The notes under the pieces are model-generated. The model was not told the origin of the DNA. It was given only the letters and a program-made list of their open reading frames with translations, and did no database searches. The position numbers and the translations under genes are program-made. From contig JAUWBH010000046.1 of the NCBI GenBank assembly GCA_030605085.1, forward strand, positions 1 through 34,829: a stretch of 34,829 bases of DNA. The letters run 5' to 3'. Positions 12,687 through 22,952 of the stretch are shown here, in pieces. The stretch's first letter is position 1. The number at the start of each line of letters is the position of its first letter. The stretch is from Promethearchaeota archaeon. Its GTDB lineage: Archaea > Asgardarchaeota > Lokiarchaeia > Sigynarchaeales > SOKP01.

Positions 12687-14315
12687 TTATCGAGAAAAGA
12701 GACTCGCTGGCGGTTGTAGACTTTTTAACAAATCTAATAAGTATATGATCTCTTCGGAGCCTTTTATTAATCTTTTCAAACTGTAGGGAAAATCCTTTAA
12801 TTCCACTCTTTTTCCTTCATAGACCCATTTTATGATTAACCTTATCATTTCCTTGTATTTATTAATAGTTCCTCCTTCGAAATCAATTTCATTCATTATT
12901 TTCTCTGCTTTGTCTAATTTTCCACTAAGAATACTAGACAAGGAGGCTAATACGGAAGAATGAACGATATGAGAAGTACCAATTCTTTTTAAATTTGCCG
13001 CTCTATAATAATATCTGTAGACATTTCTCACCATTTCTCTGAGGAAAATATCTTTTGCGATATCTAACTGTTCGTAGAATTTAATGCTTTCTAATATAAG
13101 AGTAGCTGCGGTATAAAATTGCTTGTTTTTAAGCCCTTCTTTTGCAATCTTGCTTAAACCCCTAACTATTTGATTAAAAATTCCAAATCGGTTAAACTCT
13201 AAATTGCCTTCAACTGCGATGTCGTAAGCGTTTAAATATCTTTCGGTGGATTGGTTTATTTCGCTAATTTTCCAAAAATTGTCCCCCGCTCTAACAAAGT
13301 GTTTATATGCCATATCGTAATTATTAAGTTCTTTAAATATAGATGCGGCATCAAAAAGATTTATAGCTGATTCGGTATAATCTTTACCTTTTTCAGCGTA
13401 ATTTCCTGCTAAAACGAAACAAGAAGCACATTTAATTAAGTTATTGTGGATTTCTTGGTAGCATAACCCCGCACCGCGATAAAACCTTGCTATTTTTTGA
13501 AAATTCTTCTTTTTTTTTTGTAAACCTTCCGCCAAATTTATATATGCCCCTGCTTCTTTTTTAGTGAAATTAACAATCTTTTCTTTATTATTAAGGATTT
13601 TAAGACTGTATAATTTCTTTAAAATCTGACACATTTGAGCTAACGCTAAATTATCGTTCTTTTCTTCGAATTCGTAAAATAATTTCGAGAAAAAATCAAC
13701 CCCGTCTAAAATAATCTCCTTTGATTTATCATAATCGTCTAATTCTTCAAAACAAGAAGCAATCTGCTGATACGAATAGGACAATAAATCGTAAAAACTA
13801 TTGGTCTTTGAAATATTAATAACAACTTCGAAAAACAAAACCGCATTTTTAAAATCTGAAACTTTAACATACAATTCGGCTATGTTTTGATGATTTTGAG
13901 CAAGTTTCCTTAACTCGTTAAAATCTTCCATAAGTTTGCTTTCTTGGTTTAAATATTTGATCCCTTTAAGAATATATTCTTTCTCTAAATTAGAATCTTG
14001 CAATTTTTCGCCGTATATATCCGCAATTTTTAAATATATCTCTGCTACTTCGTGCAATTTTGCCTGCATAATAAGATTTTCAATCAATTTTTCCATCAAT
14101 TCAATATTATGCTTATATAATTCAACAGCACGAGAAAAATCCAGTACTTCTAAAAGTTCCGCAGCAGAATATATAAATTCCCCAGCATCAAAATAATCGC
14201 CAGATTCGGCAATTTCGTTCGAAAATTTAATTGAAGAGGAGATCATTTCTCGATACAGCTTATTTCTCTCGTGTGGCTCTGTTATTACTTCGATCTTCGA
14301 TAAAGATTCTCTCAA
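12687..14315 (-). CDS. Alpha-solenoid/TPR (SNAP-like) protein
   Basis: A 542-residue, almost entirely helical protein built of degenerate TPR-type hairpins. Recurrent signatures include AEIYLKIADIYG, AELYVKVSDFKNAVLFFE, YSYQQIASCFEELDDYDKS, and a run of Cys/Ala-rich pairs (FYRGAGLCYQEI, CASCFVLAGNYAEKGKDY, FDAASIFKELNNY). The spacing and the 'A..AG..Y' character recall eukaryotic alpha-SNAP, a solenoid adaptor, but this is only a fold-level likeness. No membrane helix. The annotated start is TTG at 14315. The same frame stays open up to 14375 with protein-like residues (DDFEILEEGEYTDYADFIE), but that extension has no standard start codon and a TGA ends it, so the N-terminus may be damaged or misplaced. 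The likely role is protein-protein scaffolding. Confidence 0.8.
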   Translation of the reverse strand: MRESLSKIEVITEPHERNKLYREMISSSIKFSNEIAESGDYFDAGEFIYSAAELLEVLDFSRAVELYKHNIELMEKLIENLIMQAKLHEVAEIYLKIADIYGEKLQDSNLEKEYILKGIKYLNQESKLMEDFNELRKLAQNHQNIAELYVKVSDFKNAVLFFEVVINISKTNSFYDLLSYSYQQIASCFEELDDYDKSKEIILDGVDFFSKLFYEFEEKNDNLALAQMCQILKKLYSLKILNNKEKIVNFTKKEAGAYINLAEGLQKKKKNFQKIARFYRGAGLCYQEIHNNLIKCASCFVLAGNYAEKGKDYTESAINLFDAASIFKELNNYDMAYKHFVRAGDNFWKISEINQSTERYLNAYDIAVEGNLEFNRFGIFNQIVRGLSKIAKEGLKNKQFYTAATLILESIKFYEQLDIAKDIFLREMVRNVYRYYYRAANLKRIGTSHIVHSSVLASLSSILSGKLDKAEKIMNEIDFEGGTINKYKEMIRLIIKWVYEGKRVELKDFPYSLKRLIKGSEEIIYLLDLLKSLQPPASLFSR

Positions 14316-14375: not shown

Positions 14376-14615
14376 TCATAAAATCTATGGACTATTTAAT
14401 GGTAATTTAACTAAAAATAAAAACAAATGGGTTTTTAATTACACATATTTATCGAAATATTTTGAATTTGTTGTCAAAAAATTAACGTCAAAAAGTGTAT
14501 CGTTAGATGTTGAGTATTTATAGCTAACAGTTACTAAAAATATACCCAAATTTGGACATATTATGTAGGACTATAACTGGAGTCCTTCGACCAAACACAG
14601 ATATTTAGCCGAGTA
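14376..14615 (-). other. Right-end region of TnpB-like locus; possible guide RNA scaffold
   Basis: This 240-bp gene-free stretch lies directly 3' of the large RuvC nuclease gene, where TnpB elements carry the right end and the 3' part of their guide (omega) RNA. It holds a clear hairpin at 14567-14586, a 10-bp palindrome CCAAATTTGG (about 14548-14557) and AT-rich DNA. I could not define a transposon boundary, so the RNA assignment is inference from position. Confidence 0.35.
14567..14586 (-). ncRNA. Hairpin downstream of the TnpB-like gene
   Basis: AGGACT, an eight-base loop and AGTCCT give a perfect 6-bp stem, starting about 30 bases past the stop codon of the nuclease gene. IS200/IS605-type elements have end hairpins, and TnpB guide RNAs have stem-loops here, so it could be either. 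No expression evidence. Confidence 0.35.
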
Positions 14616-17300
14616 TCAACTAATACTTAAATTTCTTAATATTTTTCTTTTACCAATAAGCCTTGAGGCATTCAGATCAGAATCTACATATGTACCACAA
14701 TGCTTACAATGAAACATTTTTCCATTTCTGAAGCCTTCTTCTCTGCAAACAGCACAAATATGAGAAGATTTATAAGCGTCAACTACAACAAATTCTATAC
14801 TTTTCCTTAAAGCATTTTGCAAAGTCATGTATTGTACTTGCGAGAAAAACCAATGAGTCTGCCAAAATGCAATCCAGCTTCCTTTTTCCGATTTTTTTGA
14901 ATGTTTTGACCAACTTAACTCTTCTGCTTTAATTCTATTTGCCCCGTGATACTGAGCAATTCTGACGATTAATACAGACAGTCTATTAACGACTTCCTTA
15001 TTTAACCGTTGAATTTTACTCCAGATGTACGATTCTGTTTTCATTCGATGATACCATTTTATATTGTTCCAATAATCGTTTGGATGTCTATTTTCGTATT
15101 CCATCCTTAGCTTTTGAACGATTCTATGTTCCCTTCTTAAATTAATGAGTCTTTGTTTTATGTTTGAAGGATTTAATTCTTTATTTTGCAAATAGACGAA
15201 TTTGCCTGTAGTGTCGTCGAATTTTATATCAAATAAGGTTCTCTGATTAATAAAATGTCTCTTAATCTCGTCGTTATTTGATGGCTTTGATTTATCTCTC
15301 ACTGAAAGCACAGCAAAATGTTTTATGCCTAAATCTACTGAAACCTCTATGTTGTTGTTCTGTTTATTCTGAGGTATATGATTTCTGTCCATTTTTTTCT
15401 CAAATGGTTGGCATAAGATAAGCTTTTTGCCTTTAAGAGAGATAACGGGATTTCTTAATTTATATTCCTTCTTTAAAAACTCACGAAACCGTTTTTGCTG
15501 ATTTGTATTTAAGTTCAATACATATTCCTTACCTCTTTTTTTAATTAAACCGAAATTAATTGAAAAAGAATCTTTGTTAAATTCGTAAATATATTCAGTC
15601 ATAACCAATGGAATTGAAAGGCTCTTAATTTTTGGTATTGATGTTATACTATATATTTCAGAGCTAATTTCCTCTAATTCTTTTTTTAGATTATTTGTGA
15701 TAGTATTTATAGACACTATTCGTAAGAGTAAAGATTTTAACTCCGCTTTAGCACGATTTACTAGTTTAGAAATCGTATATTCTTTAAAACCGTTAAAATC
15801 TAACGATTTAACAGAAATTCTTGAAAGGTTTGGTTTAAAAATGTGTTTTGATAGATTTAAATTTGGATTCTGAACCAAATTTTTTAAATAATTTACAAGT
15901 TGCTCTAAAACTTTAATTTTTAACGATTTATGTAGTATTAAAGAGTACTGCTGAGATTTGGTAATTTGAACTTTATCAACTTTTCTATTTCTAATCTTTT
16001 TAAAATCATCAATCTCTAGAATAGAGTAATCGTTAAAGAGATTATTCACAAATGAGACTAAACAGTTATCTCCATGAATCTTTTTATATAATAATCGTTT
16101 TTTGGCTAATTTAGTAGTATCGGTCTTTATCTTCTGAATAAATAGCTTTAAGAGATAATCTTGAGGATTTAAATTTTGTCTCGAACGATTATTAACAACT
16201 TCTTTAGAAATTTTGGAAAAAAAATCGTCTAGCAACTCATTTGAACTATTTTTATTAAACGCTATAAAATCAATTAACTGTTCAATCCCTTTTTTTAGAA
16301 TTATATCCATTCTTTTACGAGAGAATAATATATTCCTTACCTGTCCAATATGATTTATAAGATATTCGTTGGAAGGATTGTCGTAATCGCCTAGTACATT
16401 TTTTCTGTGTTTAAAGTTGAAATCCGATAAAAATTCTTGAAATATTTTTTTTCCTGATAAAAATGCCTCTAAAATGTAGTATTTATCAATCACAGTAATT
16501 TTTTTACTTTCTGAATAATCCCATACTTCCCTACTCTTATCCGAACTTAATAACAAATTAAGGTTAGAGATTATTTTTTTTAATCGTTCGTTTCTTATTA
16601 TCCAATTTCTAACCGCATAAAAAGGGTATTGAAGTGCATTTTGTTTTGCTCTTTCAATTAATTTGGTAGATTTATCATAATTTGATTCGAACTTGCTTAA
16701 ATTTCGAGAAGGATCGTTTGGATCACTGTAATAATCGTAAATATATCTCCGAATCCTTTTTTTGGCAGAAATGAGTAATCGTTCGTTAGAATTAATTTTT
16801 TTAAAATCTATCTTTTCCTTTTGAGATACTGTTAATATAAAATTTGGGTTTTGATATGATTTATTGTATATAATAGACGGATTAGCTCTGATCTCATTTA
16901 TGAAAAATTCTATATATTTATTTTCAATGTCTCTGAACTTTATTATTTGTTTTCGAATATTGTCAAGTACAGATTTATCGGGTGGGATTAGCGCAAATTT
17001 TCTCGATATTATTCGATTAACAGCCTTTTTACGAAAACGCCATGTTAAGTTCAAATATTTTGCTATTTTTTTTACTAAAGCTATAGATGTACCGGCATTT
17101 TCAGCGATTTGCTCATAAGTTAAGTTTCTATAAAAGGAAGTTATCATTCTGATAATTTTTGAATATAAATCAACTTCTGCAATTTTAGGTTTAGATATTG
17201 GTTCATTTATTCTCTTAAGGATCTCTTTTGAGGTGAGAACTCTATTATTATTTCTAATTACTTTCCATATTGATTCTTGTTTTAATTTACTCAACTCCAT
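14616..17300 (-). CDS. Large TnpB/Cas12-like RuvC nuclease with N-terminal helix-turn-helix
   Basis: This 894-residue protein belongs to the TnpB/Cas12 superfamily of RNA-guided nucleases but is about twice the usual TnpB length. Residues 60-84 (LTYEQIAENAGTSIALVKKI) form a helix-turn-helix. From about 100 a TnpB-like start appears (KFALIPPDKSVLDNIRKQII), followed by a greatly enlarged helical region to about 560 in the REC position. Residues about 565-645 resemble the wedge domain (LRNPVISLKGKKLILCQPFE). The RuvC core is complete: Asp656 in VSVDLGIKHFAVL, Glu793 in IKAEELSW, and Asp875 in VDSDLNAS. A zinc ribbon uses Cys849, Cys852, Cys865 and Cys868. No TnpA transposase, cas1/cas2 or CRISPR array is in the window. 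ATG 17300 has a weak GAGAAGG site. All catalytic residues present argue for an active enzyme. Confidence 0.88.
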   Translation of the reverse strand: MELSKLKQESIWKVIRNNNRVLTSKEILKRINEPISKPKIAEVDLYSKIIRMITSFYRNLTYEQIAENAGTSIALVKKIAKYLNLTWRFRKKAVNRIISRKFALIPPDKSVLDNIRKQIIKFRDIENKYIEFFINEIRANPSIIYNKSYQNPNFILTVSQKEKIDFKKINSNERLLISAKKRIRRYIYDYYSDPNDPSRNLSKFESNYDKSTKLIERAKQNALQYPFYAVRNWIIRNERLKKIISNLNLLLSSDKSREVWDYSESKKITVIDKYYILEAFLSGKKIFQEFLSDFNFKHRKNVLGDYDNPSNEYLINHIGQVRNILFSRKRMDIILKKGIEQLIDFIAFNKNSSNELLDDFFSKISKEVVNNRSRQNLNPQDYLLKLFIQKIKTDTTKLAKKRLLYKKIHGDNCLVSFVNNLFNDYSILEIDDFKKIRNRKVDKVQITKSQQYSLILHKSLKIKVLEQLVNYLKNLVQNPNLNLSKHIFKPNLSRISVKSLDFNGFKEYTISKLVNRAKAELKSLLLRIVSINTITNNLKKELEEISSEIYSITSIPKIKSLSIPLVMTEYIYEFNKDSFSINFGLIKKRGKEYVLNLNTNQQKRFREFLKKEYKLRNPVISLKGKKLILCQPFEKKMDRNHIPQNKQNNNIEVSVDLGIKHFAVLSVRDKSKPSNNDEIKRHFINQRTLFDIKFDDTTGKFVYLQNKELNPSNIKQRLINLRREHRIVQKLRMEYENRHPNDYWNNIKWYHRMKTESYIWSKIQRLNKEVVNRLSVLIVRIAQYHGANRIKAEELSWSKHSKKSEKGSWIAFWQTHWFFSQVQYMTLQNALRKSIEFVVVDAYKSSHICAVCREEGFRNGKMFHCKHCGTYVDSDLNASRLIGKRKILRNLSIS

Positions 17301-17325: not shown

Positions 17326-17676
17326 TCAAGCTCTCTGATATAACTTATACTCTCCTCTGTCGTAATTATAAGATCTTAATATATCTTTGGTAATTCTTGC
17401 AGATGAATGACAATAATGTGTATGTAATAATGGATATTTGGATTTCCATTCGTTATAAAAATTTTTTCTAATCATTGGATAAGAGGAATAGTCGTAATAT
17501 GTATTACCTTTCTTGGAAACTTTCCTAAAAAGAGGATTTTCGATACACTTATCTATTAAAAAATTGACAGAATCTTTAAAACAATTAATAGTATACACAA
17601 TTTTCTCGTATTTCCTTTTAGTGAGTTTCAAAGATTTTATCTTCACTGTTTTTATTACTTTCAAAAGAAATACCAT
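17326..17676 (-). CDS. TnpB N-terminal fragment or stand-alone WED/REC-like small protein
   Basis: About 116 residues that match the N-terminal part of TnpB only: a first strand (KTVKIKSLKLTKRKYEKIVY), then the helical REC segment with SVNFLIDKC, YPMIRKNFYNEWKSKYPLL and HTHYCHSSARITKDILRSYN. The wedge and RuvC parts do not follow; the frame ends after a short YDRGEYKLYQRA tail. The stop is 25 bases before the start of the large nuclease on the same strand. It may be the stump of an older TnpB, cut when the second gene arrived, or a separately encoded module. ATG 17676 is preferred over the TTG one codon upstream. Intactness of the reading frame over 116 codons is notable. Confidence 0.65.
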   Translation of the reverse strand: MVFLLKVIKTVKIKSLKLTKRKYEKIVYTINCFKDSVNFLIDKCIENPLFRKVSKKGNTYYDYSSYPMIRKNFYNEWKSKYPLLHTHYCHSSARITKDILRSYNYDRGEYKLYQRA

Positions 17677-17679
17677 CAA

Positions 17680-20123: not shown

Positions 20124-22952
20124 ATGAGCGAGCAAATTGAAGGAATAATATTAGAGCAAAGCCCCTTATTTTTAAACAGAGACGAGGAGATGAAAGGTTT
20201 CCTTTTGAAGCATTTTGAGAACTTATTTGAAGATTATAAATTATTAAATCTGGATAGATTTGACATGAGCGAGAGAATTTTAAAGGCGGGATTTCATAAG
20301 GAATTATCTGGGTGGCTCAATATTTATAAAAATATTGTTATTAGCTCACATTTAATTGAAGCAGGTAAAAAGAAACGATATGATTATAAATTCTATTTTA
20401 TAGAAGAAAAATTAGACGAAGAAACAATCGAGTTAATTACAGATGGTCTAAATGAAGTTGAAAGTCTTAAACGCAAATTTAAATTTGAAGAAGCGATCGC
20501 AAAAGTTGATGAAATGTTAAATCTTATTAAAAATAAGGAAGATAGAGTGTTCAATTTAAAATTATACCATGCTCGGACGGATGTTATTGATGCTGAGATC
20601 GAGTACAAAAGATTAATGGCTAGATTAATTGAATTAGAAAAAATAATAAAAGTCGATATAAAAATTGAAGATCTAGAAAATGACGATTTAAACTTTTTTA
20701 TCGAAAATTGCGAAGAGATCGTTCAAATTTCTAAAGCCCTTAAGAAAGGACCTTTAATAAGAAAATATTCAAGTATATTAGAGAAGTCTAAAAATGAGAT
20801 AAAATTAAGAAGAGATTTAGCAAGATTGGAACAATATATTTTGCAAAATAGAGAAAGAAAAAATTTCATTGCTGCGATAAATGATTGTGAAAATATAATT
20901 AAGTTAGCTACTGATAACGCTAAAACTGAATTAGCTGAGAAATATACTCAAATTTTAAAAGAAATTAATGAAGAAATTGAAAAAATTAAAAATAATATAG
21001 AAATTGCCATGGATGAGAGCGCAAAATTGATTGAAGATTCAAACTTTGAAGATGCTTTTTCAAAAATCAATTTCGCTTTAGAGCTACTAGATATCACGCA
21101 GTTTAAAGGTTATGAGAATTATGAAAAGAGATTGTTAGAAAAAAGGACCGAATATATCAATATTCAAGAAGATCGTTTAAAATTAGCTAAAGACATTACA
21201 GAGTTAGACAATAAATTAAAACAAAAAATTGAGAATAAAAAACTTTTTTCAGCTAAAAATTATTGCGAAAGATTAATAGAGTTATCGAAAGAAAATAATA
21301 AAGATGAGTTAGTAAACAATTATATGCTATTATTAGAGCAAATCAATAAAGAAATAGACGAGTTAAAGGAAAAGATTGAAGATGAAATTAAAGAGAGCGA
21401 AAAATTAAGCGAAAATCTCTATTTTGAAGAAGCAATTTCCAATATTAATTCTATGCTCAAAATCATTGGTGAAAACCTTCCTGCATATAGGATAAAACTA
21501 GAAAACACCAAGAATATTATATTAAAAGCAGAAAATGAATATAGACAACTTGAACGTGAAATTGACGAGTTAAATGAAGTTTTAGGGGATTATCTAGTTA
21601 GGAAAAATTTTACTGCTGCAATAGAAATTTGTGAAAAAATCATTAATATATACAAACAGCATCGAGCAGCATCAAAGTTAATAGACAACTACACGACTAT
21701 TTTAAACCAACTTACAAACAAAGTGGAAGAAATCAAAAAAGGTATTGAAATTCTTTTGGAAGAAAGTTATTCTCTCGTCGTCGAATATCTGTTCAAAGAA
21801 GCCCTCTCTAAAATCGCAAATGGAATGGATTTAATAGGGGAACAAGATCTTCCAGAATATTCCAGAAAATTAAAAATTAGAAAAGAACAAATTTTTGAAG
21901 CTCAAGAAAAATATATTAAATTTACCGCCGATGTTGAAGATTTAGAAAAACAGCTTGAAGTTAATCTTGAAAATAAAAATTTAGTTATGGCACTAAATAA
22001 ATCCGATTTATTAATAAATATTTATGAATCCTTAAATCAACCCGAATTAATCAAAAAATATACTGACATTTATAATGAAATTAATAAAGAAGTTGGGGAG
22101 ACCAGAAGTAAAGTCGATACAGTTATAATTACTAGTCATAAATTAAGCGCTAATTTTGAATTTGAAGTAGCTATTTCAAATATTGATAAAATGTTGAAAT
22201 CTATGGAAGAACAAAATTATCCAGATTTAAAAAGAGCGTTAGAAAATAAAAGACAAGAAATAATCTCTCTCGAAGTGAAATATAAAAAATATCTAACTCA
22301 GATTGAAGAATTAGATAAAGAACTTGAAGATAATATTAAAGAAGAAAATTATGTTGCTGCATTAAATATTTGCGAAGAGATCATCCATATTTCTGAATTA
22401 AATAATAATCAAGAATATATTAAAAAATACAAAAACAAACTTAAAGAGATCAAAAGCGAATTTCAAAAATTTTCGAAATTAAAAAGCTCGTTGGCGAAGG
22501 GAGCTATAAAAGTAAAAGGCTCACTGGCGAAGGGATCTACAAAAGCAAAAAGCTCATTGACGAAGGGAGCTATAAAAGCAAAAAGCTCACTGGCGAAAGG
22601 AGCTATAAAAGTGACGAAAGGAGTATCAAAAATTAAGATACTAAAAGAGAAACCATTAAAAAAGGAGTTATTAGCAGAACAAGCAAGATCTGAAATAAGA
22701 AAATCTAAAACATCATGTATTCGAAAAGGTTCTAGCTTTTATCCTTATATTAGATGGACGCCAATTCGTAGATTAATGAAGGATGCAGGTGCACATATAG
22801 TAGCTTGTAAAGCTGTAATTGAGTTAATAGAGTGGATGGGTACTGCAGCCGAAACAATAACAAAGACAGCGTTAACGCTAACAGAACATGCCAAAAGAAA
22901 GAAAATATCTAAATATGACATATTATTTGCTGTGAAATACCTCAAGTCATAG
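20124..22952 (+). CDS. Giant histone-fold protein: helical repeats, Lys-rich linker and C-terminal archaeal histone
   Basis: A 942-residue protein with an unusual layout. Residues 1-110 are an N-terminal helical domain. About 110-785 hold four to five repeats of roughly 125 residues, each a charged helix pair with a signature like NFIAAINDCENIIKL, SAKNYCERLIEL, NFTAAIEICEKIIN or NYVAALNICEEIIHI, followed by a second pair of the FEEAISNINSMLKI type. Residues 788-835 are a Lys/Ala/Ser/Gly linker of about four 11-residue repeats. Residues 877-942 are a histone fold: PIRRLMKDAGA matches PIGRIIKDAGA of HMfB, and the Arg925/Asp932 pair of HAKRKKISKYDI matches the HMfB R52/D59 clamp. The C-terminus may bind DNA or pair with another histone while the long arm reaches other partners. 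No ATPase motif. Stop is TAG. Confidence 0.9.
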   Translation: MSEQIEGIILEQSPLFLNRDEEMKGFLLKHFENLFEDYKLLNLDRFDMSERILKAGFHKELSGWLNIYKNIVISSHLIEAGKKKRYDYKFYFIEEKLDEETIELITDGLNEVESLKRKFKFEEAIAKVDEMLNLIKNKEDRVFNLKLYHARTDVIDAEIEYKRLMARLIELEKIIKVDIKIEDLENDDLNFFIENCEEIVQISKALKKGPLIRKYSSILEKSKNEIKLRRDLARLEQYILQNRERKNFIAAINDCENIIKLATDNAKTELAEKYTQILKEINEEIEKIKNNIEIAMDESAKLIEDSNFEDAFSKINFALELLDITQFKGYENYEKRLLEKRTEYINIQEDRLKLAKDITELDNKLKQKIENKKLFSAKNYCERLIELSKENNKDELVNNYMLLLEQINKEIDELKEKIEDEIKESEKLSENLYFEEAISNINSMLKIIGENLPAYRIKLENTKNIILKAENEYRQLEREIDELNEVLGDYLVRKNFTAAIEICEKIINIYKQHRAASKLIDNYTTILNQLTNKVEEIKKGIEILLEESYSLVVEYLFKEALSKIANGMDLIGEQDLPEYSRKLKIRKEQIFEAQEKYIKFTADVEDLEKQLEVNLENKNLVMALNKSDLLINIYESLNQPELIKKYTDIYNEINKEVGETRSKVDTVIITSHKLSANFEFEVAISNIDKMLKSMEEQNYPDLKRALENKRQEIISLEVKYKKYLTQIEELDKELEDNIKEENYVAALNICEEIIHISELNNNQEYIKKYKNKLKEIKSEFQKFSKLKSSLAKGAIKVKGSLAKGSTKAKSSLTKGAIKAKSSLAKGAIKVTKGVSKIKILKEKPLKKELLAEQARSEIRKSKTSCIRKGSSFYPYIRWTPIRRLMKDAGAHIVACKAVIELIEWMGTAAETITKTALTLTEHAKRKKISKYDILFAVKYLKS
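22485..22625 (+). repeat. 33-bp tandem repeats encoding the Lys-rich linker
   Basis: About four copies of a 33-bp unit encode variants of SLAKGAIKVKG, SLAKGSTKAKS and SLTKGAIKAKS. The DNA itself is conserved between copies (for example 'ctcactggcgaagggagctataaaag' variants), so the array is fairly recent and may vary in copy number. Its composition recalls the tails of linker histone H1. Confidence 0.85.

Follow-up and report, generated by a model that had tools for sequence, protein, structure and literature searches.

What is a TnpB-like nuclease of Cas12 size doing in an Asgard archaeon: is it a step from transposon towards CRISPR effector, a protein domesticated by its host, or still part of a mobile element? 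The question is raised by an 894-residue open reading frame (ORF) in a 34,829-nt stretch of DNA from Promethearchaeota archaeon (contig JAUWBH010000046.1 of assembly GCA_030605085.1), the whole of which is referred to below as the window. A preliminary description made from the sequence alone had proposed either an intermediate between TnpB and Cas12 or a domesticated nuclease guided by DNA binding. The analysis reported here indicates that the protein is very probably a large IS607-type TnpB with an omega-RNA (reRNA), from an Asgard lineage of giant TnpBs, and that it is best read as an independently enlarged, helix-turn-helix (HTH)-bearing transposon TnpB rather than as a step toward known Cas12. 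The observed basis for this is the architecture of the protein, its family and clade, the IS607 linkage of its relatives, copies found at different sites, and the structure and boundary of the RNA. The earlier identification of a nuclease of the TnpB/Cas12 type, enlarged in its REC part and bearing a true HTH, therefore stands, whereas guidance by DNA binding and the path to Cas12 are unsupported; the predicted guide RNA just downstream of the gene had been missed.

Architecture of the large TnpB

The following features of the protein were located:
14616-17300, minus strand: ORF of 894 residues, an HTH module followed by a large TnpB core (reverse-strand translation, Pfam, AlphaFold2)
17010-17300, minus strand: N-terminal HTH module, residues 1-97 (homology to protein P0025, codon usage)
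15621-16985, minus strand: enlarged helical REC part, residues 106-560 (AlphaFold2 model, family alignment)
15333-15335, minus strand: RuvC-I aspartate D656, in a DLG motif (residue check, 36-row alignment)
14922-14924, minus strand: RuvC-II glutamate E793, in the canonical position (residue check, 36-row alignment)
14697-14756, minus strand: zinc ribbon of two CxxC motifs, C849 with C852 and C865 with C868 (Pfam, residue check)
14676-14678, minus strand: RuvC-III aspartate D875 (residue check, 36-row alignment)

The ORF was found to be real and to be encoded by the minus strand of 14616-17300, a detail added here; the plus strand across the same interval contains many stops and no comparable frame. 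Pfam and NCBIfam scans, which covered six ORFs of the window, returned Cas12f1-like_TNB (PF07282, E 7e-11) at residues 819-882, a weak match to OrfB, and matches to guided_TnpB and IS607_TnpB that were both under their cut-offs. An AlphaFold2 model (predicted local distance difference test, pLDDT, 83.1; predicted template modelling score 0.72) rendered residues 98-894 well as a TnpB/Cas12 core.

All of the RuvC and zinc-ribbon residues listed in the preliminary description are present. In a family alignment of 36 rows, D656 is found in every row and E793 and D875 in 35 each, the single row lacking the latter two (locus L059) being one that stops at a contig end, whilst C849, C852, C865 and C868 are less strictly kept (34, 32, 34 and 28 rows). 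TldR proteins are nuclease-dead TnpB repressors with a disabled RuvC triad, and the window protein, in which the triad is intact, does not fit that description. E793 lies 56 residues before C849, and the zinc ribbon sits between RuvC-II and RuvC-III; PMC10711439 gives as marks of TnpB a D(hydrophobic)G motif at RuvC-I, a glutamate in the canonical position some 50 residues ahead of the zinc finger, and a final aspartate.

The roughly 450 extra REC residues described previously correspond to 455 residues between two WED strand blocks, most of them modelled with high pLDDT, and the part spans 326-459 residues across the 36 family rows. Ratios of non-synonymous to synonymous substitution (dN/dS), taken from four pairs of relatives that do not involve the window protein, were 0.20-0.24 for the REC half and 0.18-0.25 for the RuvC half, so that in the relatives purifying selection appears to act equally on REC and on the RuvC half. 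With REC well modelled and conserved, and the HTH common to a second protein, P0025, neither region is unrelated filler. When compared alone, the REC part gave no convincing match to any Cas12 REC.

A predicted pseudoknotted omega-RNA at the element end

The DNA downstream of the stop codon is strikingly similar among relatives, and four features were recognised within or next to it:
14527-14615, minus strand: 3' part of the omega-RNA scaffold and right end of the element (covariance model R1, aligned copies)
14568-14585, minus strand: hairpin GGACT/AGTCC, its loop holding CAGTTAT, the 5' pseudoknot strand (alignment)
14528-14534, minus strand: GTAACTG, the 3' pseudoknot strand (alignment)
14507-14526, minus strand: predicted guide, the first 20 flanking nt beyond the right end (position by alignment)

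The pseudoknot strings were first chosen by eye in 25 loci, and that list is consequently no test. The pseudoknot was retested on untrimmed alignments, without the window, and on loci outside a model lacking the pseudoknot; 13 of the 25 loci chosen by eye are in none of these counts. Three helices were supported when 13 right ends were aligned without trimming, one of them being the pseudoknot formed by the hairpin loop with the seven terminal bases of the element. Over the three helices together, 93.2% of 221 cells were paired, double changes occurred in 10 of 17 pairs, and covariation reached 0.558, against 0.250 in shuffled and 0.067-0.146 in slid controls. Omission of the window left these values similar (94.1% paired, covariation 0.544). 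The covariance model R1, built from 12 right ends with the window left out and no pseudoknot encoded, matched window positions 14508-14615 at 46.3 bits (a rough E-value of 7.9e-9). In a further set of 24 sequences (alignment A6), comprising the window, 20 freshly fetched loci and loci L002, L008 and L058, none of them among the 12 of R1, the pseudoknot formed in 168 of 168 cells, compared with 90.8% when shuffled and 18-48% when slid; double changes were seen in 15 cells, a number reached by none of the shuffles.

Conservation stops at a single T in all 24 rows, at 14527 in the window, with the bases beyond varying freely, and this boundary agrees with that of copies at different sites. Since conservation ends with the element, the flank at 14507-14526 is the predicted guide, its length of 20 nt being assumed from ISFba1 TnpB (PMC11061315). 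The 22 bases at 14506-14527 have no second match within the window with up to three mismatches allowed. No Rfam gathering score was reached by the window RNA, with only chance-like matches below, and a second, weak R1 match (E 0.22), located at 2221-2270 of the window, was taken as chance.

R1 was also run on 35 further loci, 18 of the large family and 17 of ordinary TnpBs. Right-end matches at E 0.02 or better were obtained in nine large-family loci and in none of the 17 ordinary ones. Weak matches were returned for L037 and L039 (E 0.6-0.8) and for L068 (E 0.4, elsewhere than at the right end), and none below E 1 for L061, L064, L066, L067, L069 and L043.

This covarying right end leaves the proposed guidance by DNA binding unsupported, and the arrangement follows that of IS607 TnpBs as described in PMC11061315, in which the omega-RNA scaffold runs to the element end and is followed by the guide. 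Like ISFba1 TnpB (PDB 8iaz) in that source, the window system combines a RuvC D-E-D triad and zinc ribbon with a right-end RNA whose pseudoknot joins an apical loop to a far part of the scaffold, and has, here in its relatives, an IS607 serine recombinase as partner. Unlike the IS607 TnpBs described there, which average 390 residues (a usual rather than a defining size), it has 894 residues, with a core of about 797, a REC part of 455 and an additional HTH.

A large-TnpB family associated with IS607

A protein search with residues 500-894 retrieved 19 relatives of 739-1540 residues, the two that carry an organism name being Promethearchaeota, and two loci of the family are named as Lokiarchaeota. 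A profile search of 227 Asgard-phylum genomes, in which the best three candidates at most were scored per genome, reached E 1e-20 or better in 29 genomes; some of the weaker matches represent either fragments or TnpBs of the ordinary kind. At least 14 of the 227 have open frames of 660 residues or more, and a fifteenth (G155) has a frame broken by stops.

In a midpoint-rooted tree of the RuvC region, constructed without Cas12, one branch (support 92/97) separated 37 large forms from 19 ordinary TnpBs, and the large forms in it are a single clade apart from these ordinary TnpBs. Long branches were noted for L022, L016, L081 and L067, and L049, L062 and L066 were flagged for their make-up; L022, which is viral and of ordinary size, sits on a very long branch beside the large clade. 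Full-text searches of open-access papers listed no description of this clade, subscription papers lying mostly outside that coverage.

Among 19 non-redundant loci with at least 700 nt available upstream, eight carry an IS607-type recombinase directly upstream on the same strand, three of these in split or overlapping frames; a single recombinase query was used, so that some recombinases may have been missed. The two of the eight that were tested proved to be Resolvase plus MerR proteins. L055, L056 and L057 occupy different sites and share the same right end with different flanks, and the same holds for L063 and L065, a pair with TnpB only.

The N-terminal HTH module

The HTH of the preliminary description was borne out, as a module of about residues 1-97. 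Codon usage across these residues is coding-like in this frame only, and an open run of 104 codons would be expected by chance with P <= 0.00025. Direct searches with the module found nothing; a profile search brought up P0025, a 1890-residue Lokiarchaeota 'transposase', whose residues 950-1041 match residues 3-95 of the window protein at 36.6% identity (67.8 bits, E 7e-19; the best of 2000 shuffles scored 26.2 bits) and which aligns with it over residues 1-891 at 36% identity. The module thus stands in an identical position, ahead of a large TnpB core, in both proteins, and judged by this homology the HTH is genuine; unlike the window protein, P0025 has about 945 further residues N-terminal to it. 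In that long part of P0025 (residues 1-947), CxxC motifs occur in pairs and a TFIIB repeat is weakly matched (E 0.09). The HTH_OrfB_IS605 of an older TnpB paper (PMC3627910) differs from the present module and is taken to belong to the N-terminus of TnpB itself.

The module is absent from P0002-P0020, relatives being seen either without it or with other N-termini. Six close stand-alone relatives of 829-847 residues (P0002, P0003, P0005, P0006, P0008 and P0010) begin at window residue ~96, just before the first WED strand, and the TnpB core is therefore placed at about 797 residues, with the first 97 as an addition. A core tree (midpoint-rooted, built after six distant large forms were left out, with P0025 on a long branch and P0001 flagged for its make-up) branched off P0025 first and the window second at starred forks, followed by ten members lacking the HTH according to the start sites given in their protein records. 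Two label changes were counted for HTH presence, and the module may either have been present in the common ancestor and then lost or exchanged, or have been gained twice.

The alternative that survives best is that the HTH is a host-gene leftover from an in-frame insertion, functionless in the nuclease. The N-termini of other members do differ (retropepsin-like in P0007, membrane-like in P0004, Zn-ribbon in P0009, P0011, P0012 and P0014), one such N-terminus also heads other kinds of protein, and the successive branches of P0025 and the window, with their two label changes, permit two gains. Against this, the same module is held in the same place in these two proteins despite strongly diverged cores; we consider a functionless leftover unlikely, and somewhat favour a role for the HTH in the nuclease.

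Evaluation of the IS607-type reading and its rivals

Several observations weigh against the assignment to an IS607-type element with a functional omega-RNA and HTH. All R1 E-values are rough, following a short calibration, and 23 other right ends scored 75-99 bits against 46 for the window, in which the upstream hairpin is also weak; the low score and weak hairpin suggest that the window copy may be decaying. Further pair types were matched by 16 of 500 shuffles in the alignment of 13 right ends (A3), by 112 of 500 without the window (A5) and by 158 of 500 in A6, where double changes within the pseudoknot affected two of seven pairs, a count reached by 388 of 500 shuffles. The left end of the window copy is unlocated. 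The HTH is modelled with modest confidence (pLDDT ~70 at residues 61-80 and ~45 at 1-60) and was found in two proteins only, that of the window and P0025. Finally, no tnpA match was obtained in the window, which is one of 11 among the 19 testable loci to show none; because tnpA is lacking at so many loci, and because L063 and L065 occur at different sites with TnpB only, this absence was not counted against IS607 membership.

The missing tnpA would also fit a domesticated host protein, an HTH-TnpB that has lost mobility and now regulates or defends, as would an HTH module retained despite the deep divergence of P0025 (36% identity along the full length). However, the right end with its pseudoknot and the nuclease triad are intact, the tnpA-less relatives L063 and L065 have matching ends at different sites, and no conserved neighbourhood was seen, the flanking TPR gene having other neighbours in L100, L102 and L105. 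Domestication, as put forward in the preliminary description, is accordingly unsupported and regarded as improbable.

A stage between TnpB and a CRISPR Cas12 effector is suggested by the size of the protein, by growth of REC where larger Cas12s have it, by Cas12f among the best profile and fold matches, and by Cas12u3 as the best PADLOC match (E 3e-16). A repeat scan (exact 20-base words, at least three repeats, 40-100 nt spacing) nevertheless found no CRISPR array in the window, in agreement with the preliminary description, nor in 93 further loci, its only match being one word repeated three times in the viral locus L016. Unlike Cas12f and other Cas12s, the large TnpB has a predicted guide RNA formed by the right end of a transposon; IS607 recombinases stand beside its relatives, and it belongs to a clade distinct from 19 ordinary TnpBs, in a tree from which Cas12 was absent, so that a link to some Cas12 is possible. 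The proposed path to Cas12 is unsupported by these results, and such a stage appears very unlikely. The least tenable reading, with a probability close to negligible, is that of a prokaryotic Fanzor or Fanzor ancestor: a large IS607-type TnpB in Asgard archaea and a fold match to mimivirus Fanzor2 would favour it, but both marks that define Fanzors in PMC10711439 fail. RuvC-I reads DLG in place of DPG, and the position six residues ahead of the first zinc-finger cysteine, where Fanzors have a glutamate, is Y843, with the glutamate at its canonical place and no E in the 843 column of any of the 36 rows. Fanzor1 and Fanzor2 are relatives of TnpB, and Fanzor1 also has REC insertions.

Proposed mechanism and implications

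For a large IS607-type TnpB, we infer that transcription through the tnpB gene would also produce an omega-RNA out of the 3' part of the element. The scaffold of this RNA, with its pseudoknot, would stop exactly at the transposon right end, with the next ~20 flanking bases serving as guide, and the complex would find and cut matching DNA by means of the omega-RNA and the RuvC domain; cutting at empty sites could then bring the element back or help it to spread. A probable task of the doubled REC lobe is to hold an RNA that is longer or more structured, or an extended duplex of guide and target. DNA of the element end or promoter is the probable target of the HTH module, which would thereby hold the complex close to its element or regulate that element, and which perhaps replaces part of the missing TnpA.

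Cas12 is thought to derive from compact, transposon-borne TnpB. Here, a TnpB has attained Cas12 size, mostly through REC, without losing its link to an RNA at the transposon end and, in its relatives, to an IS607 recombinase; enlargement therefore need not wait for CRISPR, and the case suggests that proteins can grow to the size of Cas12 within transposons. A survey restricted to TnpBs of 350-550 residues, the search filter given in PMC10711439, would have skipped this clade.

Right ends without TnpB

R1 matches were found in 24 of the 227 genomes, with at least 16 in some (the best 16 candidates per genome were scored). Twenty right ends were fetched, of which 12 were uninformative, the contig stopping within 0.4 kb on the side where TnpB would lie. 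The remaining eight had 1361-2972 nt available upstream, and in seven of them, from four genomes, no TnpB or TnpA match was present over that distance:
L111 (genome G155); L116, L117, L119 and L120 (G002); L122 (G150); L127 (G140): right ends without TnpB

The eighth, L109, is an element with an internal deletion. The TnpB-less right ends keep intact pseudoknots and are possible trans guides or solo ends. A bolder proposal, which we hold only tentatively and think doubtful, is that in these Asgard genomes one giant TnpB is served by such dispersed right ends as trans guides, giving a CRISPR-like division between effector and guides that is free of arrays, with the HTH and other N-termini adding DNA targeting. 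The fused HTH, the exchangeable N-termini and the TnpB-less right ends together bring two questions within reach of testing: how REC growth benefits a nuclease guided by RNA, and whether a single TnpB draws on many trans guides.

Other N-terminal modules and genomic surroundings

In P0009, P0011, P0012 and P0014, a Zn-ribbon and helical N-terminal module of about 460 residues is fused to the large TnpB. This module also heads other C-terminal parts, and matches to it, some partial, occur in 20 of the 227 Asgard genomes; its partners include an intein-like part in L092 (PF14890, E 3e-6) and, by eye and without a Pfam match, an HNH-like part in L086 and a LAGLIDADG-like part in L087. A divergent neighbour gene of similar appearance accompanies L086, L087 and L089. 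P0007 has its large TnpB behind a retropepsin-like domain (PF00077, E 6e-5) within residues 1-714, and has only a linker of ~49 residues in common with P0009 and P0011, whilst P0004 has a membrane-like N-terminus ahead of the large TnpB.

A second TnpB sequence abuts the 5' side of the large TnpB gene in the window:
17365-17664 within ORF 17326-17679, minus strand: truncated start of an ordinary IS607 TnpB of ~450 residues, a neighbour and not part of the large TnpB (identity to L074 and L075)

This fragment comprises the first 100 codons, with 72% identity over 100 residues to L074 and L075; homology breaks at 17365, and the rest of this ordinary TnpB was not found within the window. In L008, a TnpB relic of ~0.4 kb appears by eye to lie between two parts of an apparent PadR-type gene (1225-2100), and the right end runs directly into that gene's own sequence.

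The window also encodes a SNAP/TPR-like protein at 12687-14315 (PF14938, E 6e-8). By eye, its homologue in L102 lies near genes of hydrolase and RNase Z-like type, from which it is separated by 13 kb in the window, and in L100 and L105 an RNase Z-like gene is found within a few kb of the homologue; given these closer neighbours, the region from about 14.3 to 27.5 kb of the window may be an inserted block. A 942-residue protein encoded at 20124-22952 carries a C-terminal archaeal histone fold (NF043032, E 4e-11, under its cut-off; PF00808, E 7e-6).
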